From: a virus
Reading direction: 5' to 3' (one strand)
IMG/VR virus record: IMGVR_UViG_3300025141_000053
Location: 32,001 to 83,799 of that record
Length of the DNA: 51,799 bases
Below, piece by piece: positions 1,890-45,800 of the stretch. The notes under the pieces are model-generated. The model made no database searches. It saw only the letters and a program-made list of their open reading frames with translations, and was not told the DNA's origin. Both the position numbers and the translations under genes were made by a program. Numbering within the stretch: the stretch's first letter is position 1; each line of letters opens with the position of its first letter.

Positions 1890-2188
1890 TGGTTAACTTC
1901 TCTAAACAGAGAGTTAATACATGTGTTAAGTTTGCAAAAGCATTTAGTTATTCCCTTCCTATAAAAATTACTCATAATATAACCCAATATTTAAACCCAT
2001 ATGCCAAGGAAACTTGGCCTTTTAAGCATACCAATATGCTTAGAATGGATGGAAAGAAATTTTTAATAAATGGAATGGGTGATACACACATACTAACTGT
2101 TACAATAAGAAAAGACGCAACTCAACAAGATATTGATGCGTTAGACAAATCACTTGATTTATATATAGACTTTCAGAAAGGAAAATAA
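1889..2188 (+). CDS. Protein of unknown function (99 aa)
   Basis: The start overlaps the previous stop and the stop overlaps the dnaE start (AATGG), a four-way coupled arrangement. The protein is basic at its N-terminus and contains an aromatic patch (ETWPFKHTNML). Its C-terminal half has a beta-beta-alpha look (HILTVTIRKDATQQDIDALD). No family is recognised. The position immediately before the replicative polymerase makes a replication or chaperone-adapter role possible, but that is only context. Confidence 0.65.
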   Translation: MVNFSKQRVNTCVKFAKAFSYSLPIKITHNITQYLNPYAKETWPFKHTNMLRMDGKKFLINGMGDTHILTVTIRKDATQQDIDALDKSLDLYIDFQKGK

Positions 2189-5100
2189 TGGATTTCGTTC
2201 ATCTTCATACACATACAAGTTTAGGATCTATGTTAGATGCTATGACATCTGTCAAAGATTTATTTACAATGGCAAAGGCGGCAAATCAAAAAGCCATTGC
2301 TATTACAGAACATGGCACATTGGCATCTTGTTTAGATGCTTATAATATGTACAAAGAGACGGGAGTAAAATATATTCCTGGTATGGAAGCATATGTTACT
2401 GACACTTATGAGGGGAAAGTGGCAGAAACTGGAAGAAAAATAACAACTTATGAAAAACGTAGACATCTTGTATTATTAGCACAAAATGAAGAAGGATGGA
2501 AGAATTTACTCAAACTGTGTTATATTGGTTTTCAAAATCATTTAGTATTCATTGGAAGAGTTTGGCCAAGGATATCTATGGATGATCTATCTGAATATTC
2601 AGAAGGTATTATAGCAACAACGGCTTGTGCTTCTGGATACGTTGCTCAACCCTATCTTAATGAAGGTTATGAGGCTGCTGAGGAGAAATTAGATGTTCTT
2701 AGAAATATTTTCCCAGGAAGATTATTTTTGGAGCTTCAACCACACGCATTAAAGAATGAGAGAATTGATCAAGATGCTTTAAATACGGCAATGATCGAAT
2801 TACATGAAAAATATGATATTCCTTTAACAGTTGGTATTGATGTTCACTATAGAACACATGCAGCAGAGGAATATCATGATGTTTTATTGGCAATAAATGA
2901 TAAAAAAGCATTAGATGATCCAAGTAGACACAGATATGGAATTAGTGAGTTTTACTTTAAGACGCCCGAGCAGATTCATGATTTCTTATCTGAGAAATAT
3001 GGAGAAAAAATTGCGACGAAAGCAATTGCTGGAACTGTAGAAATTGCAGACATGTGTGAACCTCCAGATTATATGGAAACTATAGGACATAGACTTCCCC
3101 AATTTGATGTTAAGTCTAAGAGTGATTATGATGTTTTTATGGAATGGAAAAATCAGGAATTTCCAGAAATCGATGAAGACATTTCTTATATGAGATATAA
3201 GTGTATTGAGAATTTTAAAAAGAAATTTGGACATTTGAATAAAAAAGATCGTAGAGAGCGGTGGAATAGAGTTAAGAAAGAGGTTGCGGTTCTTGAATCA
3301 AATAAGTTCTCTTCATATATGTTAATTGTTTCTGATTTTATTAAGTGGGCGAAAGATAATGGAATCTTAGTTGGTGTTGGAAGAGGAAGTGATGGTGGAT
3401 GTATGGTCGCCTATCTTTTAGATATTCATGGAGTAGATCCAATTAAATATGGACTTCTATTTGAGAGATTTCAAAATGCTTATAAAACAGATTTACCAGA
3501 TATTGACACAGACTTTACTTCTGCGGGTCGTGATATCGTTATGGATTATGTTAGAAATAAATATGGGGCAGATCATTGTGCTCAAGTTTCAAACATTAAC
3601 ACATATACTGCCAAAAGTATTATTCCTGATTTAACTAGATCCATGAGAGTGCCAGATTATTGGAGAGTGTCGGCTCAAATTAAAGATGCTATTCCCTTGG
3701 AAGATGGCAATGGAAAGCCAATAAAGACATTAAAAGATGCTCTTGAAGCATCTAAGAAGTTGCGAGATTTTGCTGAAGTATACCCCAAATTAATGGAATA
3801 TGCTGCTGAAATTGTTGGTCTTGAAAAAGAGTTCAGCACTCACGCTGCTGCTATGGTTATTGCTAATGAGCCAATAATTAATTTTGCACCATTACGAGTT
3901 GATAAAAATGGTATGACGGCAACCCAGTATGAAAAGAATAGGAGTGAAAATGTTGGGCTTGCAAAAATGGACTTCTTAGCCATTTCAACACTTGATGTTA
4001 TTGATGAAACTTTTAGAAATATGAGAAAACTTGGGGTAAATACTCCAAAGAAAATGGAAGATATTCCTCTTAACGATGTTGAGACATATAAAATGATTCA
4101 AAAAGGTGATACAAAATGTATATTTCAGTTGGGTAAATCTGGCATGATGCAAAATCTATGTAAGAGGATTCGGCCAAATAAAATTTTAGATATTGCGATA
4201 GTTAATGCGTTAGGTCGTCCTTCATCAAAAGATGACAGAGATCCTTTTATTGAAAGAAGAAATGGCAAAAGGGCTGTTACATATTTACATCCAAGTCTTA
4301 AGTGTTTAGAAGAAACATATGGTATTTGTTTATTTGAAGAGCAACTTATGAGTGTCGCTAAAAATGTTGCAGGATGGGATCTTAACAAGGCAGATGGGCT
4401 AAGAAAGTATACTAAACTTAAGGGAAAAAAACCAGAGTTAGCAGAGCAACTTGAAATAGATTTTATTAAAGGGGCGATGGATACTCATGGAATGGAATAT
4501 GAATTAGCTCTTGAAATATGGAAAACGGTTGTTCAAAAATTCTCTGGATATGGTTTTAATAAAACTATCAATAAAGATACATTAATAATAACAGATGGTG
4601 GAATAAAAAAAGTACAAGATTGTTCCAATAAAGATTATGTATTTTGTGTTGACAATGATAGAGAAATTCAGAAAACTAAAATTGTAGATTTACATGATCA
4701 TGGAATAGTTCCATTATGGGAGGTAGAATTTGATGACGGAACTATTGAAAAATGCACACTTGATCACAAGTGGATTACCAATGAGGGGAAATTACCCCTC
4801 TGGGAAATCCTTGAAAGAGATAAGGGAGTATTTCGAATCAGCGAAATGGATTTGCAAAAGTTGCATGATAATTTTTCAGACACAAGAGAAAATGTATCAA
4901 CACAAAAGAAGTTGCTTGGCTCATCGAAGAAATGTAAAAACGGGATCATTGGCATTAAGGACTGTAGAATTTCTATGTGGGAAGAAACTGGAGATAACCC
5001 AAAAAGAAGCGAAGTTACATCGGAAAATATGCAAACAATGCATATTGAAAAGAAGGGAAATACGAAAAGTAACACGATCCCAGTCAAACAAGTCAAAAGA

Positions 5101-6675
5101 AATGAGAAATATCGCCTCAAAAACAGCAAAGATTACGTCAGCCAGGCCAGATATCCAAAAGCAAAGAGCGGCTGTATTACAAAAATGGAGAGAGGAACAC
5201 CCAGAGAAATTTATGGAGATAATGAGGAAGGGACAATGCTCTCCCAAAAGGTCCAAAATGGAACAGTGGATGGAACCAGGTTTACAAAAAATGGGATTCA
5301 AGAGAAATGTGATATTTTACTGCGGGAAGACACAAAAGCAAGTAGATTTTATAAATCGTCAAATGAAGGTAATAATAGAAATAGATGGACCTTGGCATTT
5401 TCTACCACTTCATGGGAAAGAAGTTTTAGAGAAAACACAGGGAAGAGATCGGATGTTGGAAAAAGAAATAATGAAAAGGGAGGAGTGGAAATTAATAAGA
5501 ATTTCTATGGAGAACTTCAAGACTTGTGGGAAAATTATTTCAAAGAAAAAATTGAATTCTTTAGAAAAAATAATAATGAAAAAAGATCAGAAAACCAAGA
5601 AGATAGTCGCTATAGGAAAATTATACGAATCAATTATATTGGAAAACAACAGGGTTATGATATTGAAGTAGAACACTCATCACATAATTTCCTATTGGCT
5701 TCTGGTTTTGCCACATCTAATTCTCACGCTATATTCTATTCTATTAATGGATATTATACAGCATATTTAAAAAGATATTTCCCAGCAGCATTTCTGGCTG
5801 CTAAATTAAAAATTGAGACACTTAAAAACTCTTTAACATCTCCAGAAGAAATTTCTTCAGCAAAAATGGAATGTAGAAGACTTGGAATCAAATATCTTCC
5901 ACCTGATATTAACAGAAGTAATAGTGGATATGAGGTTTTAGATGAAAAAACTATAGTTATGGGATTTTCAGCGATTAAGGGTCTTGGAGAAAAGGCTATT
6001 GATAATGTGGTAGAGAATCAACCTTACGAGTCTTTATCTGAATTCTTTGCTAAAACTCAAGGTAGACTTGTAAATAAGACAAGAGTTGAGGTTCTTGCTA
6101 AGGGTGGAGCTTTTGATTCTTTAAATTTAAGCAGAAAAGTAATTTGTGAAAATGCTGTAAAATTAAGAACAAAGGTTTCCAATTTCATTAGGAAAAAGGA
6201 AAAGAAGAAAGAAAATCCGCTAGATTACTTGGGTGAATTATCTTTTAAATTATCAGATGAAGAGTGGGACAGAGCAGAATTTTTAATTAAGGAACGAGAA
6301 GTTCTTGCTGAAGTTATTTCTGGATCACTGGGAGAATTATATCCTGGATTTTTTACTGGTATGTCTTCTCCAATTGCATCGATAAAGAGTATGCCAGAAA
6401 AGAACTCTGCTATGTTTGAGGTAATTGTTAAATCAGAATTAAGAGAATTTGTTATTAAAAAGAAAGGAAGGTGGCAGGGTAAAAAGATGGTCAAATACAA
6501 AATATCAGATCAATTTGGCGATGAAACAGAATTAACTGTTTGGCCAACAGATTATAATTTGGCCAAGAAAATGATAGTTGAGGGAGAACCTATTAAAATC
6601 ATTGCAGAAGTAAGTTTATTTGGCGGTGATAGATCTTTGGTGTTAAAAAGTTTTGAGAAATTTTACACTAAATAG
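2188..6675 (+). CDS. dnaE: DNA polymerase III alpha subunit (DnaE) interrupted by an intein
   Basis: Replicative C-family DNA polymerase. The N-terminal PHP domain starts with HLHTHTSLGSMLDA. The palm carries the catalytic PDIDTDF motif (D438, D440) and the third acidic residue in KMDFL (D595). The fingers motif SGYGFNK ... SHAI is split by an intein at residues 793-1178. Removing the 386-residue intein leaves 1109 aa, close to the usual DnaE length, with a C-terminal OB-fold region (DQFGDETELTVW). The insertion falls in one of the most conserved motifs of the enzyme, as expected for a homing element, so splicing should be essential for function. The frame stays open through the intein although a second gene is nested there in another frame. 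The polymerase call is very firm. Confidence 0.95.
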   Translation: MDFVHLHTHTSLGSMLDAMTSVKDLFTMAKAANQKAIAITEHGTLASCLDAYNMYKETGVKYIPGMEAYVTDTYEGKVAETGRKITTYEKRRHLVLLAQNEEGWKNLLKLCYIGFQNHLVFIGRVWPRISMDDLSEYSEGIIATTACASGYVAQPYLNEGYEAAEEKLDVLRNIFPGRLFLELQPHALKNERIDQDALNTAMIELHEKYDIPLTVGIDVHYRTHAAEEYHDVLLAINDKKALDDPSRHRYGISEFYFKTPEQIHDFLSEKYGEKIATKAIAGTVEIADMCEPPDYMETIGHRLPQFDVKSKSDYDVFMEWKNQEFPEIDEDISYMRYKCIENFKKKFGHLNKKDRRERWNRVKKEVAVLESNKFSSYMLIVSDFIKWAKDNGILVGVGRGSDGGCMVAYLLDIHGVDPIKYGLLFERFQNAYKTDLPDIDTDFTSAGRDIVMDYVRNKYGADHCAQVSNINTYTAKSIIPDLTRSMRVPDYWRVSAQIKDAIPLEDGNGKPIKTLKDALEASKKLRDFAEVYPKLMEYAAEIVGLEKEFSTHAAAMVIANEPIINFAPLRVDKNGMTATQYEKNRSENVGLAKMDFLAISTLDVIDETFRNMRKLGVNTPKKMEDIPLNDVETYKMIQKGDTKCIFQLGKSGMMQNLCKRIRPNKILDIAIVNALGRPSSKDDRDPFIERRNGKRAVTYLHPSLKCLEETYGICLFEEQLMSVAKNVAGWDLNKADGLRKYTKLKGKKPELAEQLEIDFIKGAMDTHGMEYELALEIWKTVVQKFSGYGFNKTINKDTLIITDGGIKKVQDCSNKDYVFCVDNDREIQKTKIVDLHDHGIVPLWEVEFDDGTIEKCTLDHKWITNEGKLPLWEILERDKGVFRISEMDLQKLHDNFSDTRENVSTQKKLLGSSKKCKNGIIGIKDCRISMWEETGDNPKRSEVTSENMQTMHIEKKGNTKSNTIPVKQVKRNEKYRLKNSKDYVSQARYPKAKSGCITKMERGTPREIYGDNEEGTMLSQKVQNGTVDGTRFTKNGIQEKCDILLREDTKASRFYKSSNEGNNRNRWTLAFSTTSWERSFRENTGKRSDVGKRNNEKGGVEINKNFYGELQDLWENYFKEKIEFFRKNNNEKRSENQEDSRYRKIIRINYIGKQQGYDIEVEHSSHNFLLASGFATSNSHAIFYSINGYYTAYLKRYFPAAFLAAKLKIETLKNSLTSPEEISSAKMECRRLGIKYLPPDINRSNSGYEVLDEKTIVMGFSAIKGLGEKAIDNVVENQPYESLSEFFAKTQGRLVNKTRVEVLAKGGAFDSLNLSRKVICENAVKLRTKVSNFIRKKEKKKENPLDYLGELSFKLSDEEWDRAEFLIKEREVLAEVISGSLGELYPGFFTGMSSPIASIKSMPEKNSAMFEVIVKSELREFVIKKKGRWQGKKMVKYKISDQFGDETELTVWPTDYNLAKKMIVEGEPIKIIAEVSLFGGDRSLVLKSFEKFYTK
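4718..4735 (+). promoter_or_regulatory. Strong internal Shine-Dalgarno and ATG for the nested endonuclease
   Basis: GGGAGGT at 4718-4724 lies eight bases before an ATG at 4733 in frame 2. The same bases encode part of the intein in frame 1. A TTG at 4730 is also in frame. This lets ribosomes start the endonuclease independently of the polymerase frame. Confidence 0.6.
4733..5671 (+). CDS. Homing endonuclease, Vsr/EDxHD-like, nested out of frame in the dnaE intein
   Basis: This 312-aa frame-2 gene lies wholly inside the frame-1 dnaE intein. A zinc-finger pattern C41-x2-C44-x12-H57-x3-C61 is followed by a basic helical DNA-binding region (residues about 62-180, with a PDIQKQRAAVLQKW segment). 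The nuclease core is VDF (204-206), then E216-x-D218-G-P-W-H222 and D239 in GRDRML, ending in EEWKLIRI. This matches the Vsr-like/EDxHD nuclease arrangement, described for homing endonucleases found with split inteins in phage metagenomes. Its product would cut intein-free dnaE alleles. The protein has clear motifs whereas the frame-1 reading of the same DNA does not, so frame 2 is the informative one in the overlap. Translation probably starts from its own SD. Confidence 0.8.
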   Translation: MTELLKNAHLITSGLPMRGNYPSGKSLKEIREYFESAKWICKSCMIIFQTQEKMYQHKRSCLAHRRNVKTGSLALRTVEFLCGKKLEITQKEAKLHRKICKQCILKRREIRKVTRSQSNKSKEMRNIASKTAKITSARPDIQKQRAAVLQKWREEHPEKFMEIMRKGQCSPKRSKMEQWMEPGLQKMGFKRNVIFYCGKTQKQVDFINRQMKVIIEIDGPWHFLPLHGKEVLEKTQGRDRMLEKEIMKREEWKLIRISMENFKTCGKIISKKKLNSLEKIIMKKDQKTKKIVAIGKLYESIILENNRVMILK

Positions 6676-6696
6676 AAAATATACTAATATTTTTGC

Positions 6697-6727
6697 TTGA
6701 CAATTATTAATAAAAACTTATTATTTA
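6697..6727 (+). promoter_or_regulatory. Weak promoter candidate after dnaE
   Basis: A perfect TTGACA at 6697-6702 is followed, 19 bases on, by TATTTA at 6722-6727 in the only real gap after dnaE. The -10 box and the spacing are poor, so this is a hint only. The next gene starts at 6751. Confidence 0.25.
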
Positions 6728-11005: not shown

Positions 11006-11195
11006 AAAGAAAGAAAATTCAGAACTTTTTGATTTGTTGATTGAAAGTTTGCCTCCATTAAAAAATATGCTTTATGAGGCATTTGTGAAAATGTATTATG
11101 AAGAATGTTTTCCATTTATAAAAGTATCAATTTCAAAAAATTCAAAAATAAGAAAATGGGGCGAGTATCCTGTTTGTGATGAGGATATTAAATAA
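10989..11195 (+). CDS. Small unknown protein (68 aa)
   Basis: The ATG at 10989 has GGAG at 10981-10984 and overlaps the end of the resolvase gene. A longer in-frame start at 10938 would overlap the resolvase by 68 bases and has no clear ribosome binding site. The product is helical with a cluster of aromatic and acidic residues (KMYYEECFPFIK). The stop overlaps the DnaJ start (TAATG). Not recognised. Confidence 0.6.
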   Translation: MPVINKKKENSELFDLLIESLPPLKNMLYEAFVKMYYEECFPFIKVSISKNSKIRKWGEYPVCDEDIK

Positions 11196-12124
11196 TGAAT
11201 CCATATAAAACTTTAGGTGTTAGCCAAGATGCTTCTGAAGATGATATCAAAAAAGCATTTAAGGAAAAAGCAAAAAAATGGCATCCAGATTTAAATAGGG
11301 GAAATGAAAAAGAGGCAGAAGAGAAATTTAAAAAGGTCAATGAGGCTTATCAGAGATTGACAAATAAGTCTCAGCCAAATAAGTCTCAGCCAAATTTGGA
11401 AGATGATTATAACCCATTTGCTGATTTCTTTAATAGGGATAGTTTAAATAGTATTAGGAATATTGGATATATATCTATTTCATTAGAAGAAGTTATGTCT
11501 GGGATTAATAAGACAATTGAAATAGTTCAAAATAAATCTTGTAAATCTTGTGATGGTGTGGGATTTAAATTGTCCGATGAAATTTGTCCGCATTGTAAAG
11601 GAACAGGCGGAACTCAAATAAATAGAGGTATTATGAGAATAATGACTCAATGTTCTCCTTGTCAGGCAACTGGGAAGAAAATCGAATCTATTTGTGGTTT
11701 TTGTAATGGAAATAAAACGTATTCTTCAACGGAAAAAATTGATGTTATAATTCCAAAGGGAGTTAAGCATGGTTCTATGATACAAATAAAAGATCATTAT
11801 GTTGCCACAATAACTCATGTACAACATTCTATTTTTAAAAGAACTAACAATCCATTAAATTTAATTCAGGTTGTTAATGTAGATTGGTTAGATTCTTTAT
11901 TAGGAAAGACATTAAAAATATCGACACTTGATGGTAATAAAAAATTGAAACTTAAACCCATCATACAACAAGACTCGACATTACGAATGAAAAAGAGTGG
12001 CTTAGTTGATGAGAGTGGTTTAAGAGGACATATGTTTGTTAAAGTACAAGTAAATATGCCTAAAAAATTAAGTGAGAAACAAATTAAATTATTAGAAGAA
12101 ATAAGGAGAGAGAATGACGAATGA
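11195..12124 (+). CDS. dnaJ: DnaJ (Hsp40) co-chaperone
   Basis: 309 aa. The J domain starts at residue 1 (NPYKTLGVSQDAS) with the HPD motif at residues 30-32, needed to stimulate DnaK ATPase. No long Gly/Phe linker is present; a short NKSQPNKSQPN repeat takes its place. Four zinc-binding CxxC motifs follow at residues 116, 131, 153 and 167, in the order of classical DnaJ, although the third and fourth have lost part of the CxxCxGxG pattern (CQATG, CNGNK). The C-terminal substrate domains follow. No DnaK is in the window, so it would work with the host chaperone. Its stop overlaps the recombinase gene. Confidence 0.9.
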   Translation: MNPYKTLGVSQDASEDDIKKAFKEKAKKWHPDLNRGNEKEAEEKFKKVNEAYQRLTNKSQPNKSQPNLEDDYNPFADFFNRDSLNSIRNIGYISISLEEVMSGINKTIEIVQNKSCKSCDGVGFKLSDEICPHCKGTGGTQINRGIMRIMTQCSPCQATGKKIESICGFCNGNKTYSSTEKIDVIIPKGVKHGSMIQIKDHYVATITHVQHSIFKRTNNPLNLIQVVNVDWLDSLLGKTLKISTLDGNKKLKLKPIIQQDSTLRMKKSGLVDESGLRGHMFVKVQVNMPKKLSEKQIKLLEEIRRENDE

Positions 12125-13235
12125 AAATCCTGATACAATTGGATTAATGTCTGCTATGAAAGAGTTAAATAAGACTTTTGGAGACAGCGGATTATTTGCT
12201 GGGGATAGTGAAGGTATCGAGCCAGTAGATGCTATATCATCAGGAAGTCTAGTTGTAGACGATCTAATTGGGGTTGGTGGATATCCCAGAAGCAGATTTG
12301 TTCAATTTGCTGGCAAGGAAAGCAGCGGAAAAACTTTTATGTCAGTAATGGTTATTAAAGAGTGGCAGAAGAGGCATCCAAAAAATTGGGCACTTTTTAT
12401 TGATGCGGAATATACTTATGATGAATCTTGGTTTAGATCATTGGGTGTTGATACTAGTAGACTAATGGTATTTAAAGAGGCTAGTGCTGTTAAGATTTGG
12501 AATTTACTTTGTGGAGTTCCTAAGCAAAATAAGACTACCAAAAAGGTTACAACGACTCCAGGTTTGTTACAAAAAGTAATTGACGCAAGAAATAATGATG
12601 AAGATGATATTATGAAGTATTTGGGAGTTGTTGTATTAGATAGTGTTGCCAATATGAGTCCACCAATTGAAGAATCATCTGCTGTTGAAAAACAGAACAT
12701 GGCCCCAATGGCAAGGTTTTTATCTAATGGTTTAAGAAGACTAACACCACTTGTTGCCAAATCAAATGTATTATTTATTGGTTTAAATCATATTCATATT
12801 AACATTGGTCAGATGTATGGCGATCCCGAAACCACTTCTGGTGGTAGAGCTTGGAAGCACGCTTTATCGATGACAGTAAATTTTGCTGCCCAAAATCAAA
12901 AAGATAATTTAATAATAGATGATGAAACCCAAGATATAATTGGTCATAGGGTTAAATTAAAGATTCAAAAAAATAAATGTGCCCCGATTAAGTCAAGAGA
13001 TTGTGAGTTTGATATTAAATATGTTAAAGGCATTGTTAATAGACATTTGGAGGTAGGGGAGTTAGCAATTAAATACGGTGTAATAGAAAGACCCAATAAC
13101 GTCATGTATGAATATGACGATCAGAAATGGAAAGGACGAGACAATTTTCTTGATGCTCTTGAAGAAAATGAAGAGTTACAAAAAGAGCTTATAGAAAAAA
13201 TTAATGAAGTTGTAGAAACTAGGAGGAATAGTTAA
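12114..13235 (+). CDS. RecA/UvsX-like strand-exchange recombinase
   Basis: 373 aa. Walker A GKESSGKT is at residues 67-74 and Walker B (GVVVLDS, Asp at 176) follows the expected distance later. A loop rich in Ser/Glu precedes ARFLSNGLRRLTPLV, and NHIHINIG with TSGGRAWKHA corresponds to the L2/DNA-binding part of RecA family proteins. It forms filaments on single-stranded DNA and promotes strand invasion; SSB, the possible mediator and the resolvase nearby complete a recombination set. It starts at an ATG with AAGGAGAGAG upstream, inside the end of dnaJ. Confidence 0.85.
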   Translation: MTNENPDTIGLMSAMKELNKTFGDSGLFAGDSEGIEPVDAISSGSLVVDDLIGVGGYPRSRFVQFAGKESSGKTFMSVMVIKEWQKRHPKNWALFIDAEYTYDESWFRSLGVDTSRLMVFKEASAVKIWNLLCGVPKQNKTTKKVTTTPGLLQKVIDARNNDEDDIMKYLGVVVLDSVANMSPPIEESSAVEKQNMAPMARFLSNGLRRLTPLVAKSNVLFIGLNHIHINIGQMYGDPETTSGGRAWKHALSMTVNFAAQNQKDNLIIDDETQDIIGHRVKLKIQKNKCAPIKSRDCEFDIKYVKGIVNRHLEVGELAIKYGVIERPNNVMYEYDDQKWKGRDNFLDALEENEELQKELIEKINEVVETRRNS

Positions 13236-32400: not shown

Positions 32401-33846
32401 ATGCTTACAATAAAACAGGCAAAACAATTTTCAGAAGTACTAGTAAAAAATGAATTATATAAAGATGCGAGTCATATAGATAAATATATTCTTTTGGCCA
32501 GTAACTCACCAATTGAAAAACATGCTGGCTTGTGGGATTGGGTAGGCGGGAAATTATCTGGTTGGTCCAAACGAATATTTTTTAAAAATTTCCGTCAAGC
32601 TTATTCTTTGGCAACTGAAATTCAGAAAGAATTGGATGATCACATGGGAAGAGTGGATGAGCAATTTGGCCAAACAAAAATGTATCTTGCCCGGCATGAC
32701 CTTATTAATTGGCAAAGGGCAATAGCTGAATTGGGCATCAATATCACTCCATCTGAGAGACTCGCAAATTTACAAAATAGATATAATGATTCCTTAAAAG
32801 AAATGAATAAGGGTGTTGGTCTCTTGAGTGATGAACAAAAAGAAGAATTAAAAAAAGAACAAAAAAAGCAGAAGAAACCTGCCCCATCAACTGAAACTCC
32901 AGGAGATACTACTCCCGTTGCTGAAGATGATTCTGCCGAAAAGTTAGATGAAATTCCAAGAATAAAAAATCCTGAAGAAATGACTGCAGATCAGTTAAAA
33001 CGTTTAAAAATGTTATTAGGTGCCCCAAGTGAGGATTATGCACGCTGGAATAGATCAATAATCTTCTATAATAAGAGGTATGCAACATCTGATTATTCAA
33101 ATGTTGCGAGAATAGCCATACCAAAAAAAGTTTTTGATTACCATGTTGATAACTCTCATTTTAATTCAATAACAAGAGATGATGGTAAAAAATATTTTAT
33201 GGTCAATCAGGCACCAAGTGCTAACTTGTCCAACGAATTAAAAAACACAGTTGCTGCCGAAAATATAATTAATGCTGCTTGGGTACAAGATGGAGAATTG
33301 ACGGATAAAGATGGAAATAGTTGGATTGAATTCGCCCAAGTAGATCGTTCTCAAGTTGACATGTTTCATGAAGATCTTGTTACACCAAAAACACCAGAGG
33401 AGGCTGTGAGGATCGAAAATACGGCAGATTACGAATTTTTTGAGGGTGATAGCGGTTCTATTTATTTACCGAGAAAGCAGTTTGAAGCAGGACTTTCTGA
33501 GGGGTTTGTCGAACTTACACCAGATGGAGATATTGGTCCTGTTAAGTTTGTTAAATTAGTTATTGACGCGGCTCATCCAGAGTGGAAAAATATTTTGCGA
33601 TGGAGGGGCAGAGACGGGAAAATTCTAAGATGTGAGTACGTATCAGATGATTGGATTAAAATTAATAAAATAACTGTCACCACAATGAAAAAAGAACTTG
33701 GGATAAGAACTCCATCTGACATGACTCCAGAAGTAGAGTCAGAGGTTGAATTAGAGGATATTGATGTTCCAGAATCGGAAGATGGGGAAGAATCCAAAAC
33801 CGCAAAAAGGCTTGATAAAATAATTGCATTAGCTATGATGATGTAG
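32401..33846 (+). CDS. Unknown late protein with tag motifs at both ends (481 aa)
   Basis: GGAGAAAACA precedes the ATG. The N-terminal tag variant contains ASHIDKYILLA (residues about 23-33), and the last residues are AKRLDKIIALA plus MMM. The C-terminal motif matches the linker that separates modules in the giant protein encoded next. A central region has long helices and an acidic/Pro linker (residues about 140-190), followed by a beta-rich domain (NRSIIFYNKRYATSDYSNVA ...). I do not recognise the family. Its layout links the tag on small proteins with the linker in the giant. Confidence 0.65.
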   Translation: MLTIKQAKQFSEVLVKNELYKDASHIDKYILLASNSPIEKHAGLWDWVGGKLSGWSKRIFFKNFRQAYSLATEIQKELDDHMGRVDEQFGQTKMYLARHDLINWQRAIAELGINITPSERLANLQNRYNDSLKEMNKGVGLLSDEQKEELKKEQKKQKKPAPSTETPGDTTPVAEDDSAEKLDEIPRIKNPEEMTADQLKRLKMLLGAPSEDYARWNRSIIFYNKRYATSDYSNVARIAIPKKVFDYHVDNSHFNSITRDDGKKYFMVNQAPSANLSNELKNTVAAENIINAAWVQDGELTDKDGNSWIEFAQVDRSQVDMFHEDLVTPKTPEEAVRIENTADYEFFEGDSGSIYLPRKQFEAGLSEGFVELTPDGDIGPVKFVKLVIDAAHPEWKNILRWRGRDGKILRCEYVSDDWIKINKITVTTMKKELGIRTPSDMTPEVESEVELEDIDVPESEDGEESKTAKRLDKIIALAMMM

Positions 33847-33854
33847 GTGATAAG

Positions 33855-36800
33855 ATGATATCTAAAGTTACGGCGACAGATCTTGGCCAAATTGTAAATC
33901 TTCTGCAAAAACAATTGATGCCAGAAGAAACATCTCCTAAAACCAGTCCTCAAGAAACTGTTTCAAAAGAAACTATATTGAGACCGCTTCCTCTTGTTGA
34001 TACAAAATTAGCATATGATATTATTATTGGTTTAGAAACTGGTGGCAAATATGCTGTTGGAGATCTTGAGACTGGCTATGGATTGGTGGGAAACCAACTA
34101 TCAGCTTTTTCTAGACACCTATCAAAAGATCCACTATCTGAGAAAGTAACTGGAATAAGTTCTTCTGATTATAAAACAATTGGAAGTGCCCATGGTAATG
34201 CTTGTAGGGCACTGAGAAAAATAGATTATTGGAAAGAGGTTCCAATTGATCAAGATGCTGTCGAATCTTATTTTAAAAATAATCCTCGAAAATATAGACG
34301 GAAGGTTTTAAAATATACTTTACCAAATGGCGAAGCTATTATTGCCAAAAAGAAAGATGGTGGCTGGAAAGGATATGGTGTTGATTATAGTAAATTAAGT
34401 GGCTACATGAAAATAACTCCTGAGTCAAAGTCTAAAATCAATCGCATTGTTAGTAGATATATTACTGGCAATGTTAACTTAAGTGCTATAGCCAAATTAA
34501 AAGCTTCCCAAGATCATCCAGAACTTTATAAAAAATTTGATGATACATTTACTGATGCAAAAAAAGTAAGAAAAAATAAATCATTAATGGCATTATGTGA
34601 GAGAATGGCGCAAAGAGATTTCTCTGGCCGCATAAATTCTGTAGTTAAAATGGTTCAAAAATATGGATATGATGTTTCCAACTCACAAGCCTATAATATT
34701 TATCAACTAATAGCAATAGCAAATGCTAGTGGCCTTGGCCGACTTAGTAGATTCTTAAAAAACAAACAAACTTTTTCTGAAGGCCACTTATATTATTTAA
34801 AAAGGGCAAATCCTGCCATTCAAAAGAAAACTGGTATTTCAACACAAATGCCTCCGAATGGTGGGTTGGCTGGTTTTAAACAAAAGACAGCAATGATATC
34901 AAAGAGAGCAATTATGAAATCAATTCCTTTCCCACAAGATTATGTAGAGTCAATTAAGAATGGCCAGCGAACATTTACCATAAGACTTGAAGATTATGGT
35001 GTAGAGCCTGGTGATACTGTACAAGCTATTACAGATGCTGGTGCTCACTTCTGTGATCTTTCTATAGAAGAAGTAAAAAAAATGACTCCATATAAAATAG
35101 GGAAAGACATAAGTGAACCATTAGGACTTGATTTAGAGGAGAAGTTTAAATTTCAGCCCGAAGTAGAAAATTTCTTTGTTATTAAATTTTACAATCCTAA
35201 TATAAAATATGCTTCTGATAATAAACATATTGTGGTGGATGATGGGGCAGAATTTTTAATTAATGCGTTACATATATTAGATTCTTCTTTTTCAAATTGG
35301 GAAAAGTATATGGATTTTGAATATGACATTATAGAAAATTTTTCTTTATATCGTGTAAAATTTATAATTATATTAGATGATTTGCCAAATAATTTTATTA
35401 ATCTGAGTCCCTTATTTAGACAAGATATTTTCTCAAGAACAACTCATGAAGATCATTACATACAAGTATCGTCTTATATAAGGCAAGGAGAAACGGAAAA
35501 ATTTTCTGAAATTGTAGATATTTTATATAATATAATAGAAAAATCTATATCAAATCAAAAAACAATTATACAAAAATTTATTAAAACAATAGCATCTATT
35601 ATTTCTGATAATGATTATCATAAAGATGATGTTTACTCTGTAGTAGACCCGTTTTCAGTTTTTAATAGATCTAAAATAATTGTTCCTAAATCTAGTTTTG
35701 TTTTTAAATTGAGCGAATTTAATCTACTTCCTCAAGAAAGAGAAGTGTTTAATTTACATTTGGGCGAAGAAAAATCTAAAGAGACAGATTTTAAAATTTA
35801 TTCTAATAATGGCAAATCAATATTTATTATCTCATTAGAATATCCTGATGTAAAATATATTGATGAAAAAAAACAAAAAGAAAATGTTTTAGGGCAAAAA
35901 AAGAAAAATAAATTAATTGGTTTAAATACTGAAATGATGGATCATATCATAAAAGTTATGGGTAATAAGATTAAATCATTTAATAATGATGGTGTTAAAC
36001 CTGGTTTTGTTACAAAAGTATCAGAGTTATATCATGATCCATTTGGCGCTTCTGGAAAATTTTTTAACCAAGATATAGAAATTTTATTTCGCCTAGAAGA
36101 TAATCAAAAAGCAGCATATGAGGGGCTTTATAATAGCAAAAAGAAAACAATTTCTATTTGGATCCCAGAAGAAAACATAGATTATGAGAAAATAGAATCC
36201 CTGTTAGAACATGAATTAGCTCATAGCGGAGAAGTTGTTTCTGGAGACCCGAGTGCAAGTAAATATATTGGCCCAGATAGAAATTTTATGGCATATTTAC
36301 ATAATAAAAATGAAATAAATGCCAGGTGGGGACAAATACTATTATCTTTAAGAAGAGATGGGTTATCAAAACACCATTTAGATTTATTTATGCGTGAAAG
36401 AGAAAGAATGACCGAGAAAGAAGAAGAAATATTTATGGAACAAGTTCGTGGCAGGGTAGAAAAAAACGCAAGAACAATTTTAGAAGCTATCAATGAGGGT
36501 CATAATTCTGTAGATATGATTTATAAAGTATTAAATGGTAGATTTACAAAAAGAGCAATTGAGACATACATAGATCATCTTAGGGGAGATGGTTTTTTAA
36601 GTAATGCCTCTCGTTTAGATAAAATCAAAAAACTTGCCACACAAACATATAGTGATAGAAATGATAATACATATAATGTTGATGAACTTATTAAAATAAC
36701 AAAAGACAATAAAATTACTGATGAGCCAATTAAAAAGTTCAAAAAAAATCTTAAGAAAAAAATGTGGGAAGATTCTGATGATAATGAAATTTCCTTACAA

Positions 36801-39800
36801 GATGTATTGGATAATAAATCTAAATATAGAAAAGAATCTTCTAGGATAAAAGAAGTTGATCTCAAATATCCGATATTGGTATATAAAGATACGGTTGTTG
36901 ATGGAAATCATAGATTATCTAAAGCATTTGACGAAGAAAAAGAAACTATTAAGGTTAGATATGTTACCAATAAACAAATGGAAAAATGTTTAGAAAAGGA
37001 GATAGATTTCCCTAAGTCAGAACACAAAGATATTAAAAAACAATTAAAAGAGCGGGGACATATATACACAACTCGTGTTGATAAAGATTATGGAAAATAT
37101 AAAGAAGGTGACATACTAACATCTCCATTTGGAACATTAAGAGTTAAAGATGTTGATAAATATAATAAGTTAGAAGATCATCCACATCTAGATGAATTGA
37201 CCGATAAAAATAAAGAGGATATTGGAAAACACAAATACGAATATATAAAACTTATAAGAAAAGAATCAGAAAGGATGAGGTTGATTTCGAAGGTCGCTGA
37301 AGATATAAGTAAAAAAGATGATATCGAGAAAATAATTGATGATTTAAATCCTGATATTGTTATTGATGCAGATATTGTGAATGATATAATTTTAGAATTA
37401 TCATTTGAGAGCGATTATAAAGATTTTATAGACTTATCTGATGTTGTTACTGGTTTAAACAATAACGAAGCATCAGTAATGGTAAAAGAGCATAAAGCAA
37501 TAGTTAGTCTTATTGGCAGAAATGGGTTTTCTCCAGATTTAATAAGAAAGGCTGCGGCAAACATAAACAGTGCTTTTAAAAAATCAAAATTAAACCAAGA
37601 AGCTATAATGGTTAAGATTTGGGCCAAAGTGTTTGGGTCTGTATCATTTGGCTATGGTGTAAAAGATGAACACTATTCTTTTAAGCTTTCTAGTGGTCCA
37701 TTTAGAAGATCACTAAAAATATTATTTCCTGAAAATCCCACAACGCTGTCTTTGTCTGAATTAAATGTTGATGACTCAAAAAAAAGAGAATTTGGGGAAC
37801 ACATATCGAAGATTTTGGGATATGGAATAGTATTCAAGAATTTTAGGATATCAATTGAGGGTGATTACGTAATTCTACTTTGTGTCCCTGATATGAAAAG
37901 CTCTAACTATATTAGTTTAAGGGAACAAAGAAAAAATATTTTAGAGCAAAAAGAAAAAAACCTTAGTGATATTGGGATGAATGAAGATAAGTTTAATGAG
38001 TTATTAGAAAGGACAAAGGCTTATTATAATAGTTTTGAATATGATGAATATACTGCAGAGCCGATAGATGAAGATCATCCTTCAACGCCATTGGAAAAAA
38101 TTTGGAGTGATCCCTATGGCGCAGCCGGGAAATTTTTTAACAAAAACACTAAAATAGTTTTGGCATTTCACGAAAGAACTAAAAATAATGGAAAATATTC
38201 TGGAAAATATTTGCCTGATGAAAATTTAATTGTTGCTTATATTTCAGAAAACGACCATGTAGATTTGGCTATGATTGAATCTATTATAGAGCATGAATTA
38301 GTTCATAGTGGGCAAGGAGATTTTAGTGGATATATTAGTTCTGAAGAAAATAGTTTAATATATCTTTTAAATAAAAGTGAAATAGATGCCAGATGGGGAG
38401 AAATATTATTTAGTTTAAGAAAACATGGTCCTAGCCCTATTTATTATGGGTTGGTTAGTGATGAACGCAAAAGAATGACCAATCAAGAAAAAGATGTGTT
38501 TGATGAGTGTATTAAAAAAATAAGATCAAAATATCAAAATATTATTCTGGAAACAATAAATGAAGGGCATAACTCTATTGATATGGCATATGAGGCACTT
38601 GAAAGAAAATTCTCTAAGAAGGCAATAATGAAATATTTTGATGAGTTAGAATTTAATCATTTGATAGATACTGCCTCTCGCCTAGACCATATTAAAAAAC
38701 TTGCTTTTGGTGGAAAAGACCAGAAAATATTATATCACGTTGGTCCAAGGCCAGCCGAACCTAAGCCTTATAAACATAATATAGAAAAAGGATGGACTAG
38801 ATATTTTAAGGAAGATGGTGAACATAAAGTCATAAATTATGAACGTGCAGTATTTTTAACAAATAACTGGAAAAAGGTTTGGCAAAATCACGGTATTCAC
38901 GGAAATATTTACATATATAAAATTCCCATGGCCATGATAAAAGAGTCTGGTGGCATACAGAAATATGATTGGGCGACCGAAATTATATTTGATGAGAATT
39001 TATGGAATAAATATAAGAAAGATGTTGTTTTTGTTGGATCTATAGATGAACAAAAAGCAGAAGAAATAATGAAAGACTATTTTGAAACACGGCCAGGGAT
39101 TGGCAAAAAGCAATTAGAGAGAGAGATGGAAGATGTAGTTGATAGGCTTTTATCTGGCGAGGCAAATATAGAATCATATTCTTACTTTTCTAATGATCGT
39201 CTAAATACAATAAAAGATATGTTAAATAAAAAAAATGCTGGCGAGGAAATAGTCTCTCTTATTGATCGTATATTAAGAGTGAATGCCATTTACCAAAATA
39301 TCGATGACAGGGAAGCATCTAGGATTGATAGAATAAAAAAAATAGCCAATTTTCCAAATGAATTATTGGAGAAATTAGATGATATTAATTATGGATTGGT
39401 AACAACAGATGACGAGGAACTATCTCAAGAAAAAATGGATTCATTAGACGATGAGAATGTTGATTGGTGGAAAAATGGAGATAATATTAAGTTATTGACC
39501 ACAGAAGAGACATTAGATAGAAATATTGGAAGTTGTTATGAGCAAAGTCTTCTAGAATATAAACTATTGGATGAGGCTGGATATGACCCAATAATGGTAT
39601 TTGTTAATCCAGAAGATGGTGAGGGCAATGGGCACAGTGCTATCTTTTATAGTGAAGGAGATGAATGGTATTGGATAGAACATTCTTGGGGTGATCAACG
39701 GGGAATCCATGGACCTTATGATAATATAAATGACGGAATAGATATTATGATAGAAAAAATGTCGATGGGATGGAAAAATGTTACTAAATATTATTTAAAT

Positions 39801-42800
39801 AAAGATATGGATCCTTCTCTAATACTAGACAAAGAAGGATTGACTTATAAAGATTTTAAAACTCAAGGTTTGAAGGGAGCATCAATAGAGAATGTAGAAG
39901 AATATTGTAACGATGCTAAAGTAGGCTCAAGGCTTGACTTAATAAAGAAAGTTGCCAGAAGAATTAGTATACTATATTTACAAAAAAAATACAAACATGT
40001 TTATAAGCATATTGCTGATGAGTTAATAAGTGTGGGGAGATCTTCTAATAATTCTAAATTTTTTGACAATGATGATGATGCATTAGCTGCTTTGAGCCGG
40101 CCACCTGAAATTATACGAAGATATTTAAATGATAAACTTCCAAAAGATGTTATTGTAGAAGTTTATGATGATGGTATGGAGGATACGTTTTATTTGGGAC
40201 CGAGAGGCGGATATTTAGAAAAACCAATTAGTGGAAGATGGATTCATGTAAGTTGTCTTCCAAGGGGAAAAAATTTAGACAATTATCTTCGTAAATTTTT
40301 AAATATAGACAATCATGTTTGTTTTTCTTCGGTCGGAAATCAATCTGGAGATGAACTTTATGTAGAGGGAAGAACTGACCAATTTTTTGCAATCATTATG
40401 GATGGGGAGGCAGACGGGGCTTTTGGCCATGATGTTTATTCTGATATTGATGAGTGGACAAATAGAAGATGTATTTCTGGTTTGACTAAAAATAAGCGAA
40501 AGCCTCCCGAGACTATTTTTGAGGCTTGGGTTATCCCGAAACAATCAAAATTTGTTTGTATTGTTTCAAATATAGATTCTATTATAAAAGAAGCCGAAGA
40601 ACTTGGGATTAATATAGTTAAAAGTAGTCCAATTGGGTTTGGAAGGAGTGATAACGAAATAGATAAAACTGATTTGACTTATGAGGATAGTGTTGAACTA
40701 GAAAATGAACTAGAAGAAACAGATAAGTGGATGGATAAGGCTCAAGAATATGATTCTGATTATTATAGAAAACCAAAGAAAAATAAGTCTATAGTCGAGG
40801 AAGACGAGGAAGATTCATGGGAAGATTACGTCGAAATATCTGGATCAAGATTTGACCAGATTAACAAGTTAGCAGTTTCCCCAGAAAAACCTTCTGGTAT
40901 TTTAACGCCGCCAGAAGATAAAGTAAAAATGGTATCTGATTATATTCGTAAACATTTCTATCCAGCATTATTTTCACATTGGGGAAATTGGAAAGAAAAA
41001 TCAAATTTTATATTGAAAGAACTTAATGATGCCAAAAAACAATTGGAGCAAGACAAAAATGCTTTGCCATCAATCTGGATAAAAAGAGAAAAAACCAATT
41101 TGACCATTGATAAAAAAGAAACTAGTTGGTCGCTTTTTGGGAATGGAAAATTTCTAGATATTAAATTTTTATCAGCAGGTAATATAGATTTTAAAGAAAA
41201 AATTATAGATATAATTGACAAAGAAGAGAAGTCTTTGCGAGAGGATTTTGAGTGGGCTGGAAAAGTTCCACAAGAAAAAATTGATATTTTAAAAGAATAT
41301 GCCAATGGCCAAACTATTACTTTGCCAAATACAAAAGATTTTAATTTTGAAATAGACAATTATCCTATAATGATAAGAGTTGTTTTTGATCCTACAGCAA
41401 GAACACATTATCATTCAAGAGATTTTGTTGGATATATAATACTTGGATCACATTCATTTTCGCCATATCAAACAAATCAACAATATTTCTTTGAAGCACT
41501 TCGTGCTATCCCACATGAATTTACACATGTAATGCAAGATATTCTTGCCAAAAAACTAGGTAAAGAGAGACATGAGGTTGGTTTGTCTTCTTCTAGAATA
41601 GGTGATAAACCAGAGCATCATTTGAAACCACATGAATTTAAAACAAACTTAGTAACTACTATAGAAGATATTAAACAAAATTTATTACAATATCCTTCCG
41701 ATGAGAGAGGGGAAATCCTCAAAATGAGATTGGCAGTTATTCCTTCAGAAAATAATTATGGACCTTGGAATTTAACACATGATAGGACAATGGTTTTATT
41801 AAAAAAAGATGCTCCTATAAAATGGAAAAAAGCGGTCAAGGAAGTATATCAGGCAGTTGAAAATTTATTACAAGACAAAGTTGCCCAGAGGCTTAATCAG
41901 ATAAGAAAACTAGCACAAAGAAGCAAGTACGAAATACTTATTGGATATCTTATAAATATATTAAATGATATGAATGTATCGAAGTCAGAAGTTATTATTG
42001 GAGGAAGTGGAATTCTTGGCGCTTTAGGATTAAAATCTGTTGGCGATTTAGATATTACCATTCCGGATAAAAAAGCATGGAGACGGATATCACAACATCC
42101 TAATGGTATTGTGGATGAAATTCGCCCAGGAAATCCTAGAGTTAGATTTGATTTTCCAGAAGGTGAGTTAGAAATATTTACTGGGCCATGGAAAGTTGAC
42201 GAAAGAGATTTTGCTGAAAATATGCTATTAACAGATGTAGAGGGAATTAGTCATTGGAGTCCAGAGCATACGCTAGAATGGAAACAGATGATGAACAGAC
42301 CAAAAGACCAGAGCGATATTGAATTACTTGAAGGTTTAAATAAAAAATCTTCAAGACTTGATAAATTAGCAAATGAAATTACATATCTTAATCAAAAAGA
42401 ACAAGAAGAAAATGTTTTATATGATAAAAAAATGAAGAGAAATGTTGGATTAAATGAAAAATATATTTCTTCTCTTATTAATGGAACAAAATCATTTTAC
42501 AAAAATATAAATGAAGAGTACAAAAAATTGGGGATAGATGAATATAATCCTAAATCAACATATGATATTTCAAGTAGTCATCCATATCTTTATGTTGGAG
42601 ATATATATTTTGACCCATATGGAACATCAACAAAATTTTCAGACCCTACCCTTAAATTATATTTTATAAAGTTAGATCCTATGGCTGTAAGTAAAATCTG
42701 GGGCAATATGCCAAGAGTTGGTTATGGTGGAATATGTGGAGGAGACAAAATATTAGTTATGATTCCTGATTTCGACAATGTTGATTTGTCGAAAATAGAA

Positions 42801-45800
42801 TCTACTCTTGAACATGAATCAACACATGGGGGCTTAATCTCTTATCCAAAATATACGTCGATAGAAGATGGCGAAGAAAAGTATATGAGACAACACATAG
42901 AAGTAGATGCCAGATGGGCTGAGTTATTAAGAATTCTTAGACGATATGGTCCAGGAGATTATTTAACAAAGATTAAAAATTTAGAACTGGCAACTTTAAT
43001 AGATGTCGATGACAAGAAAAAATATAATGAACAGTTTAATAATATAGTAAATAAATATGCTGATATTATTTTAAATACTATTAATGAGGGATATAACTCA
43101 CCTGAAATGGTATATAAAGTATTAGATCGCAAGTTTACATTAGAGGCAATTAAGAAATATTTTGATTACTTAAAAGAAAAAGGGTTAATGAGTTATGCGT
43201 CAAGATTTGATAAGATATATAAATTAGCAGGAATCAGAGAAAATCTTATAAAAAAATATCCTGATTTAAAAAAATATATTTTAGAAGTAGCACACAAAAT
43301 CGATAAAAGATATCTAACATGGTTTACGAAACAACTTGTAAATTTTGAGAATAAACAAAGTGGCGCTGTACGATTATATGATTATATTACAGAATTTAAA
43401 AATCATCAGCAATTGTTGGAAAATAAAGATTTGTATCAATACAATTTCCAGTCTTTGCAAAAAGCTATTTCTGAAATAAAGAAACAGAAACATGAGGCGC
43501 GGGAAGTTGCAAAACAATATTTTGAGTTGTTAAAACAAAAAAGGGAAGAATATCGTAATTTAAATATGGATAGAAAAGAGATAAGATCAAAATCATATGA
43601 AGATGGGAGAAGATTTCTTAATAATATAGAACCTAAATCATTTCAGAGTTTTGTGAGACAAGAAATAAGTAAAGTTATTGAAGAAAGAGAGAGATTAAGA
43701 GGAAAGGAGAAAACGGCAAGAGAAAATTCTGATGTTATTTTTGAAGATGAGAACTATTTAGTAATATTGCCAGGAACAGAGCAGGCTTCTAAATATTTTG
43801 GTTCTGGGACACAATGGTGTACAGCGACAGAAGAAAATAATATGTTTGTAGTTTATTCTTTGGAAAATGTATATCTGTATTATATTTTAAATAAGGAAAA
43901 TGATGATAAACATGCTTATACAATTACTAAATATAATGATCAGATTGACGTAGACATTCGTGATATTGTTGATTTTCAAATAGATGAAGCAACTCTTAGT
44001 AAAGCACTTGGAAAATATTATGATAAGATAATTCCTATTATTAATAGAGATAATGAAGGTCGCAAGGAAACAAAATTCAAGGAAATAATTAAAACTATGT
44101 CTCCAACACAATTAAAAATAGAATTGGAAAACTTAGATATATCTCAGAAAATAATCCAATATGACTACTTAGAAGATTTTTCTAGAAATATGGAAACGAG
44201 AAAGTATTGTACAAGTCAATTAAAACTTTTTGCTACAAGAATAGCAACACATGATTGGACTAAAGCTGACTTGTTTTATGCGTATGGGTTAGATAAAAAG
44301 TATCCCGAATTACATGATTTATTAATCGAGACAATAGCGGAAGGCCCAGAACCAGAATTCTTTTTTGATATAGGAGGCTTGAGCGAGAAATATCCTAAGC
44401 TAGCAAGAATAATACTTGAAAGAATGTCTAATTCTGGAAATATAGCATTCTTTTATTCAAAACTACATGAAAAATATCCCGAATATATCAGTGAAAATTT
44501 GGCTTATAGTCTTTTACACGACATTGAAGTAAGTTATTTGTTTTTTAGATTGGGCTTGCATAAGAAGTATCCTAAAGTAGTTGAAGATAGTTCAGAAGTT
44601 TTCTTGTCTAATAGTCATGATATGAGAGAATTATATTTAGAATATAAAATATATAATATTATACCAAATATTGCTCCAGAAATAATAAAAAGTGGTTTGG
44701 ATAATGGGTATGAAAACTATTTTCGCTTTAATGTTTATGAAGATCCCAGATATAGACATTACGGAGAAGAATATTTAAAAAAATATATAAATGAAGAGGA
44801 TTCTTGGTATCTTGAGGAATTATTTGAAAAACATAATTTGTACGATATTTACCCCAATATATTAAATAATGTAAAAGGGGCTAATGAAAAAAGTGCTTTT
44901 AAGATTAGATTAAATAAAAAAGTAGCATCAAGATTTGATAAGATATATAAATTGGCAAACTCCATTTCTTTATATCATTATGCCCCAAAAGAAGCCTATG
45001 AAGATATAAAAGAAAAAGGGTTAATGAGTTATGCGTCAAGATTTGATTTAATTAATAAGATAGCATCAGGAGATAGCACCAACTATCCAGAAGAACTATT
45101 AGAAAAAATGGATGATATTGATTATGGGTTGGTTACAATAGATGATGAAGAACTATCTCCGAAAAAAATGGATTCAATGGATGCCAAGAATGTTGATTGG
45201 TGGCAAGAGGGAAATAATATTAAATTATTGACTACAGAAGAGACATTAGATAGAAATATTGGCAGCTGTTACGAGCAAAGTCTTTTAGAATATAAATTAT
45301 TAAGTGAAAGTGGATATGATCCAATAATGATATTTATTCGGCCAAAAGATGGTGAGGGTAACGGACATAGTGCTGTTTTTTACAATGAGGAAGATGGATG
45401 GTATTGGATAGAACATTCATGGCATGACCAAAAGGGGATTCATGGACCTTATGAAAACATGAATAATGGGATAGATATTGTAATAGAAAAAATGTCTATG
45501 GATTGGAGAGATGTGACTAAATATTATCTAAATAAAAATATGAACATTTCTTCCATATTAGATAAGAAGAATCTGACATATAATGATTTCCAGACTCAAG
45601 GTTTGAGGGGTGCCTCATTAGAAAATATAGATACAGAATTTTATTTATATCATTATAGTCCAAAAGATGTAAGAAAAGATATAGAAGAAAGTGGTTTGAA
45701 GTCTCCATATGGATTAATTGACGATAATGACTATAAAGAACGTATAGAAAATTATAGAGATCGTACAGCAGAAACAATGGGTGTTCCCAAATCTAAAGTA

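Follow-up and report, generated by a model that had tools for sequence, protein, structure and literature searches.

The window analysed here, a 51.8 kb stretch out of an 83.8 kb IMG/VR phage record, contains a dnaE gene (DNA polymerase III alpha) that very likely carries an intein spliced in cis, with the homing endonuclease encoded by an overlapping gene that has its own translation start. Both the splicing and the separate translation are inferred. The arrangement itself is real and recurring rather than a sequencing error, since the same layout is present in at least 18 related loci.

The dnaE intein and its nested endonuclease gene

The phage dnaE is a single unbroken open reading frame of 1495 codons on the + strand (2188-6675, frame 1), in which Pfam recognizes the PHP, DNA_pol3_alpha, DNA_pol3_finger and HHH_6 domains. 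The intein takes up 386 codons of this frame (4564-5721, + strand) and separates an N-extein (2188-4563) from a C-extein (5722-6675), both also on the + strand. Its junctions read GYGFNK followed by TINKDTL, and FATSN followed by SHAIFYS. They are supported by an empty site in a relative (L001) that is 88% identical to the window over a 187-aa DnaE stretch and in which GYGFNK runs directly into SHAIFYS. Across the dnaE members, the host reading frame passes from GYGFNK to T, S or C at the first junction and from N to SH at the second. Frame 1 has zero stops within 4500-5800, and the Npu DnaE split intein matches it with each of its two halves, over intein residues 23-95 and 352-386 (phmmer, E=3e-12). 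Elsewhere, the window encodes a phage trigger factor (2-1423; Trigger_N, E=3e-20) that has an insertion rich in Cys and His and, at its C-terminus, a tandem VEETQ repeat, a phage DnaJ homologue (11195-12124) adjoining a RecA homologue (12105-13232), and two giant open reading frames, one of about 4160 codons (33819-46304) and one of >1830 codons that reaches the window end (46286-51799).

The N-terminal splicing domain of the intein, with blocks A and B (TLDHKW), lies at 4564-4860 (+ strand; phmmer residues 8-96) and is modelled by AlphaFold2 with block-mean pLDDT values of 87-97 over residues 1-100. The C-terminal splicing domain, with blocks F and G, lies at 5617-5721 (+ strand; phmmer residues 352-386), with block-mean pLDDT >90 over residues 350-386. 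Between them is a stop-free, hydrophilic spacer (4861-5616, + strand; GRAVY about -1.4) that is predicted to be disordered, with pLDDT <50 for residues 110-318. The confident part of the model matches structures of the Npu DnaE intein (Foldseek, E=2e-7). The Pfam Intein_splicing profile found no match in the window's own record, but it does match in the relatives L048 and L050 and in the terminase loci described below. On the basis of the splicing blocks, the predicted fold, the catalytic residues and the empty site, we regard the element as a HINT-type intein, whose splicing is itself inferred.

The splicing residues of the window intein are T1, the block B histidine in TLDHKW, N386 and S+1. 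Inteins generally have Cys, Ser or Ala at position 1, and rarely Thr, with a terminal Asn and Cys, Ser or Thr at the +1 position. Splicing of the window intein is therefore plausible, though unproved in the absence of protein data, and the Thr at position 1 is unusual. A residue other than Cys at this position (Thr, or Ser in others) was observed in the window and in L016, L027, L030, L042, L043, L046, L113 and L119. If these Thr- or Ser-first members of the family do splice, they would have cysteine at neither junction.

The nested endonuclease gene (4733-5671, + strand) lies in frame 2, +1 relative to dnaE, and comprises 312 codons plus a stop (5669-5671). Frame 2 is open from 4727 to 5668; its open reading frame is listed as 4730-5671, with an ATG at 4733. 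The Shine-Dalgarno sequence GGGAGGT (4718-4724, + strand) is situated 8 nt upstream of this ATG, within the W-E-V codons of the intein. The anti-Shine-Dalgarno pairing predicted for ATG 4733 (-12.3 kcal/mol) was the strongest of the set and was equalled in 0/2000 background draws. Strong Shine-Dalgarno sequences precede the endonuclease starts of the window, L017, L042 and L050. Over 14 nested loci their strength gave a combined p=7e-4, with only two loci strong alone and L017 moderate. Several nested relatives (e.g. L016 and L048) have weak ones, and given these it is possible that the mode of initiation varies among members. Translation of the window endonuclease from ATG 4733 by internal initiation is likewise an inference.

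The frame-2 product is predicted from its model to be a zinc-finger and Vsr-like (EDxHD) endonuclease, and its cleavage of the intein-less allele is inferred. Two zinc-finger-like units, C41-x2-C44...H57...C61 and C82...H96...C100 (4853-5032, + strand), form conserved columns in two alignments, and matches of their sequences to zinc-finger profiles were weak. The catalytic core, which belongs to the Vsr-like fold, consists of D205, E216, D218, H222 and D239 (5345-5449, + strand), all unchanged in a 26-sequence alignment of the family. Every catalytic and zinc-finger column is intact in the window. The AlphaFold2 model (mean pLDDT 87) matches Vsr (1cw0) with a Foldseek E=7e-4 and Z=11.8, the fold spanning model residues 157-311, and the catalytic domain of I-Bth0305I (3r3p) with Z=8.9 over 95/97 residues. 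The latter was outside the top 50 of plain Foldseek and surfaced in a second structural comparison. The window endonuclease thus has its catalytic fold in common with Vsr and I-Bth0305I, but it differs from them in genomic setting and shares only about 15% sequence identity, and the structural matches barely cover its N-terminal zinc-finger and helical parts. Single-sequence searches with the endonuclease against viral contigs, phages, plasmids and PDB sequences returned no match; alignments were needed.

A preliminary description, made from sequence alone, had proposed that the dnaE frame stays open through an intein at 4564-5721, that an endonuclease with its own GGGAGGT occupies frame 2 from 4733 to 5671, and that this protein has a zinc finger together with E-x-D-G-x-x-H and D residues. 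All three claims held: the coordinates were right, the reading frame and the Shine-Dalgarno sequence are where they were placed, and the motif columns are conserved, with E216, D218, H222 and D239 invariant.

Selection against stops in the host frame

A frame-1 stop is created by every endonuclease codon with T in third position that is followed by a codon starting in AA, AG or GA. When the endonuclease protein of the window was held fixed, phage codon usage predicted 27.2 frame-1 stops (minimum 13 in 20,000 draws) and reshuffling of its own codons predicted 13.6 (minimum 5), compared with none observed in either case. T occupied the third position in 0/113 codons before AA, AG or GA vs 21/93 before AC, AT, GC, GG or GT. 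The remaining frame has 33 stops. The same pattern was seen in the relatives: 14 nested members had 0 host-frame stops vs 168 expected, each lying beyond all 2000 shuffles, and third-position T before AA, AG or GA was found in 0/1125 codons vs 210/923 in the control (Fisher p=8e-80). Five further nested loci had no stops, with 7.7-11.3 expected apiece (about 48 summed), which brings the 19 distinct loci with an intact endonuclease to 0 host-frame stops vs about 216 expected. In contrast, 12 fractured relatives, in which the host gene is split, had 382 stops in the corresponding frame vs 408 expected, or 16-43 per locus. Selection on the host gene therefore keeps the -1 frame of the endonuclease free of stops. 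Chance openness of the double frame is rejected by the stop counts and shuffles, in the window and in the relatives, and the preliminary claim to this effect held.

Comparison of the window with one relative, L119, indicated that codon-position constraint is frame-specific. In the first part of the N-terminal splicing half (IntN), differences by host codon position were 0.44/0.20/0.47, and in the middle of the element they were 0.41/0.28/0.58 by endonuclease codon position, so that in IntN it is the third host position that changes most, and in the middle the third endonuclease position. The same bases of the middle give 55% identity when read in the endonuclease frame vs 27% in the host frame. 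The 3' segment (5594-5668, + strand) is dual-coding for functional residues, encoding the endonuclease C-terminus as well as intein block F. This short overlap of 25 codons is slow throughout (0.28/0.20/0.32; identity 64% in the endonuclease frame and 58% in the host frame), as would be anticipated if both products are important.

In the spacer, host-frame similarity among members equalled the prediction from the endonuclease sequence plus a no-stop rule (mean z 0.3). The possibility that the spacer encodes a second conserved protein in the host frame was rejected, since the identity is what this null predicts and the structural model shows disorder. In the middle, the host frame is constrained only by the absence of stops, which corrects the preliminary picture of the overlap. 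The close pairs L042/L044 and L050/L053 differ at only 1-2 sites, too few for dN/dS.

Relatives, inferred mobility and an HNH version in terminase inteins

Relatives were collected with sequence profiles of the endonuclease and of the intein N-half. We termed loci nested when the host reading frame is continuous and the endonuclease lies one base ahead. There are 19 distinct nested loci with an intact endonuclease, that is, 18 in addition to the window (L016, L017, L018, L019, L027, L030, L041, L042, L043, L045, L048, L050, L113, L119, L135, L136, L138 and L141), along with near-copies L044 (of L042) and L053 (of L050). L048 and L050 are nested-type inteins in host reading frames without DnaE domains, and both score above the Pfam Intein_splicing cut-off. 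No nested EDxHD members were found in the phage-genome collection. Another 12 loci are fractured (L013, L020, L021, L022, L024, L033, L035, L037, L039, L047, L051 and L059). In those inspected in detail the N-half stops, the endonuclease follows and the C-half then restarts, while L047, L051 and L059 were called fractured from stop counts, with the C-half junction of L051 and L059, which lies in a different frame, as further evidence. The dnaE GYGFN site of the window is also the one used in fractured relatives, among them L013 and L033. An ordinary intein (L003), with Cys1 and a LAGLIDADG endonuclease in the host frame, is found at the same dnaE site as well.

Several members depart from the common layout. 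In L041 (3910-5136) only about 20 intein residues precede the nested endonuclease, which is not at the usual site. The host frame of L041 has 0 stops with 6.7 expected, and by analogy the layout resembles inteins that are split atypically, leaving a short N-half. Shrunken endonucleases in a host frame that is still open were found in L046, L049 and L137, and in the related inteins L129, L133 and L139 the linker is short and an endonuclease reading frame is absent; together these appear to form a decay series. Upstream of 4709 in L019 and of 3712 in L046, the same host reading frame holds an apparent second intein-like element that ends in VIHN followed by C. L113 (WFRR01000160.1), a contig assigned by binning to a Thiotrichaceae MAG, carries a dnaE with an intein of the nested type.

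L119 and the window are 55% identical in the endonuclease and 56-60% identical in IntN, but only 29% identical in the aligned flanking N-extein. Mobility of the element is inferred because the L001 site is empty and because the intein and endonuclease of L119 are similar while its N-extein is not; the endonuclease family points the same way to homing. In a tree, the branch between the nested and the fractured endonucleases had 100/100 support. With free-standing relatives as outgroups the root was unresolved, and the direction of change, from nested to fractured or the reverse, was not settled. It can be argued that a nested gene is unlikely to have come directly from a fractured one, which has tens of stops, and that the change from nested to fractured could possibly need just one stop and a restart, but neither of these is a result.

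The out-of-frame layout recurs beyond the EDxHD family, with HNH endonucleases in inteins of the terminase large subunit (TerL). Two TerL inteins that emerged from the intein scan, L171 (2705-5005) and L167, hold an out-of-frame HNH_3 endonuclease (Pfam E=1e-15 and 2e-13, respectively) and score above the Intein_splicing cut-off. L171 has 0 host stops vs 10.3 expected, and stop avoidance in L167 alone was not significant (P=0.065). The hidden reading frame of a further locus, L166, had no family match. TerL inteins that hide such an HNH_3 gene are common in viral contigs. Among 57 distinct terminase-intein relatives (L171, L199-L278), 33 are nested in the register of the window, 13 are nested in the other register, in which any one open frame is weak evidence because few stops are expected, and 11 are not nested. 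The 33 same-register members had 0 stops vs 312 expected, and the T test gave 0/1753 vs 441/1612. However, these members are related to one another, and the summed counts are not independent events.

Deposited genomes also have this version: Acinetobacter phage Highwayman, Tetrasphaera phage TJE1 and Rhodobacteraceae phage LS06-2018-MD07 each have a continuous annotated TerL coding sequence with an unannotated out-of-frame HNH (L279:888-3170, L280:1014-3200 and L281:1125-3173). Taken singly, only Highwayman shows significant stop avoidance (P=0.008), and it is also the only one above the Intein_splicing cut-off. In Acinetobacter phage BP10 (L283), an HNH endonuclease is free-standing and TerL is 469 aa.

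Interpretation, alternatives and significance

Inteins are usually described either with an in-frame endonuclease or as split halves flanking a free endonuclease. The latter are reportedly represented by fractured genes, in which a free-standing EDxHD endonuclease accompanies a split intein (Dassa et al. 2009). Fractured genes are the closest kin of the window element in sequence and insertion site, and their endonuclease, likewise flanked by IntN and IntC, belongs to the same superfamily. The host reading frame of the window is continuous, however (2188-6675, no stop), and splicing would be in cis. With the canonical LAGLIDADG intein of L003 it shares the dnaE insertion site and the splicing logic; unlike that endonuclease, which is part of the intein polypeptide, the one in the window would be a separate product of another frame. 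The closest published precedent is the ShiLan domain (2025, PMC11855218), in which an insertion in a phage methylase encodes an HNH endonuclease out of frame while the host frame stays open. That insertion has no splicing motifs and no detectable ribosome-binding site, and is thought to remain in the protein. Both are out-of-frame endonucleases within an insertion that leaves a phage host gene open, with a disjunct distribution suggesting homing. However, the window has a Vsr-like EDxHD enzyme rather than HNH, dnaE rather than a methylase as host, both splicing halves and a Shine-Dalgarno sequence. An out-of-frame endonuclease within a splicing intein was not described in the open-access literature searched, although such absence is not proof.

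The preliminary description had further proposed a third state, neither an ordinary intein nor a fractured gene, comprising one continuous host gene and an overlapping, independently translated endonuclease. This is supported, as stop avoidance, the 18 further loci of the same layout, the separate folds and the frame-specific substitutions all agree, with separate translation of the endonuclease still inferred. An ordinary in-frame intein at this site had been held to refute it, but L003 does not do so because it is a different intein (Cys1, LAGLIDADG). The novelty of the layout was partly corrected: ShiLan precedes it as an out-of-frame endonuclease in an open insertion, but not in an intein.

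We propose that the endonuclease gene was overprinted on the intein in the +1 frame, at the position where such an intein usually carries its endonuclease or is split. Ribosomes on dnaE would read frame 1 from end to end, the spacer product would form a disordered loop linking the two HINT halves, and these would fold and excise themselves to leave intact DnaE. A second initiation at the internal Shine-Dalgarno sequence and ATG 4733 would yield the free zinc-finger and Vsr-like nuclease. By inference from the family, the empty sites and transfer, this nuclease would cut the intein-less dnaE site and repair would spread the element. Throughout, as shown above, host-gene selection holds the -1 frame of the endonuclease stop-free.

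The most direct objection is that two compensating sequencing or assembly indels shifted an ordinary in-frame endonuclease into frame 2. The window is a single metagenome contig whose raw reads were not examined, so this objection was met indirectly, by stop-avoidance statistics. These all but exclude it, because an in-frame endonuclease would put no selection on stops in the other frame, whereas the window has T before AA, AG or GA in 0/113 cases and 0 stops vs 12-27 expected. In addition, the identical layout and frame offset occur in 18 further loci from other assemblies. Programmed ribosomal frameshifting out of the dnaE frame, giving an IntN-endonuclease fusion, is harder to dismiss: the overlap is same-strand and +1, internal start positions differ among members, a few Shine-Dalgarno sequences are weak, and a minority frameshift is still compatible with an open host frame; slippery sites were not searched for. 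However, a strong Shine-Dalgarno sequence lies 8 nt before ATG 4733, and we consider frameshifting very unlikely, disfavoured without being excluded.

Removal of the insert at the RNA level, as an intron, might be suspected, since group I introns often house phage endonucleases. However, no Rfam intron family was among the matches to E=1 in the region 4000-6700, the stop-free host frame codes for both intein halves, and the boundaries are the intein junctions, leaving this explanation next to no room. Finally, the endonuclease could be a decaying relic without present function, the two frames being open by history alone. Decayed members are indeed known (the shrunken L046, L049 and L137, and L129, L133 and L139 without an endonuclease), but the catalytic and zinc-finger columns of the window are intact, and its identity to L119 over the same bases is 55% in the endonuclease frame vs 27% in the host frame. 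We therefore regard a relic as very improbable.

The overlapping-gene reading that we prefer has a bolder extension, which we consider likely: inteins with an overlapping out-of-frame endonuclease would be a widespread, repeatedly evolved class that has been overlooked by host-frame-only annotation. Its scope would include unrelated nucleases (Vsr-like in DnaE, HNH in TerL), either alternative frame and more than one intein position. Endonucleases hidden in what look like mini-inteins with long linkers go unnoticed, and the HNH version in deposited phage genomes makes experiments practical. The layout makes it testable how a homing nuclease is expressed independently of its host protein. The family also supplies a natural set of long overlapping genes with one frame constrained almost only against stops, a clean case of overprinting. 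For intein biology, the arrangement adds a maintained third state: the same DNA specifies a nuclease in one frame and, in another, a spacer that would be spliced out. If the bolder reading is true, the dosage of the endonuclease would be uncoupled from that of the host protein, and the state could be a stable alternative to, or an intermediate between, ordinary inteins and fractured genes.
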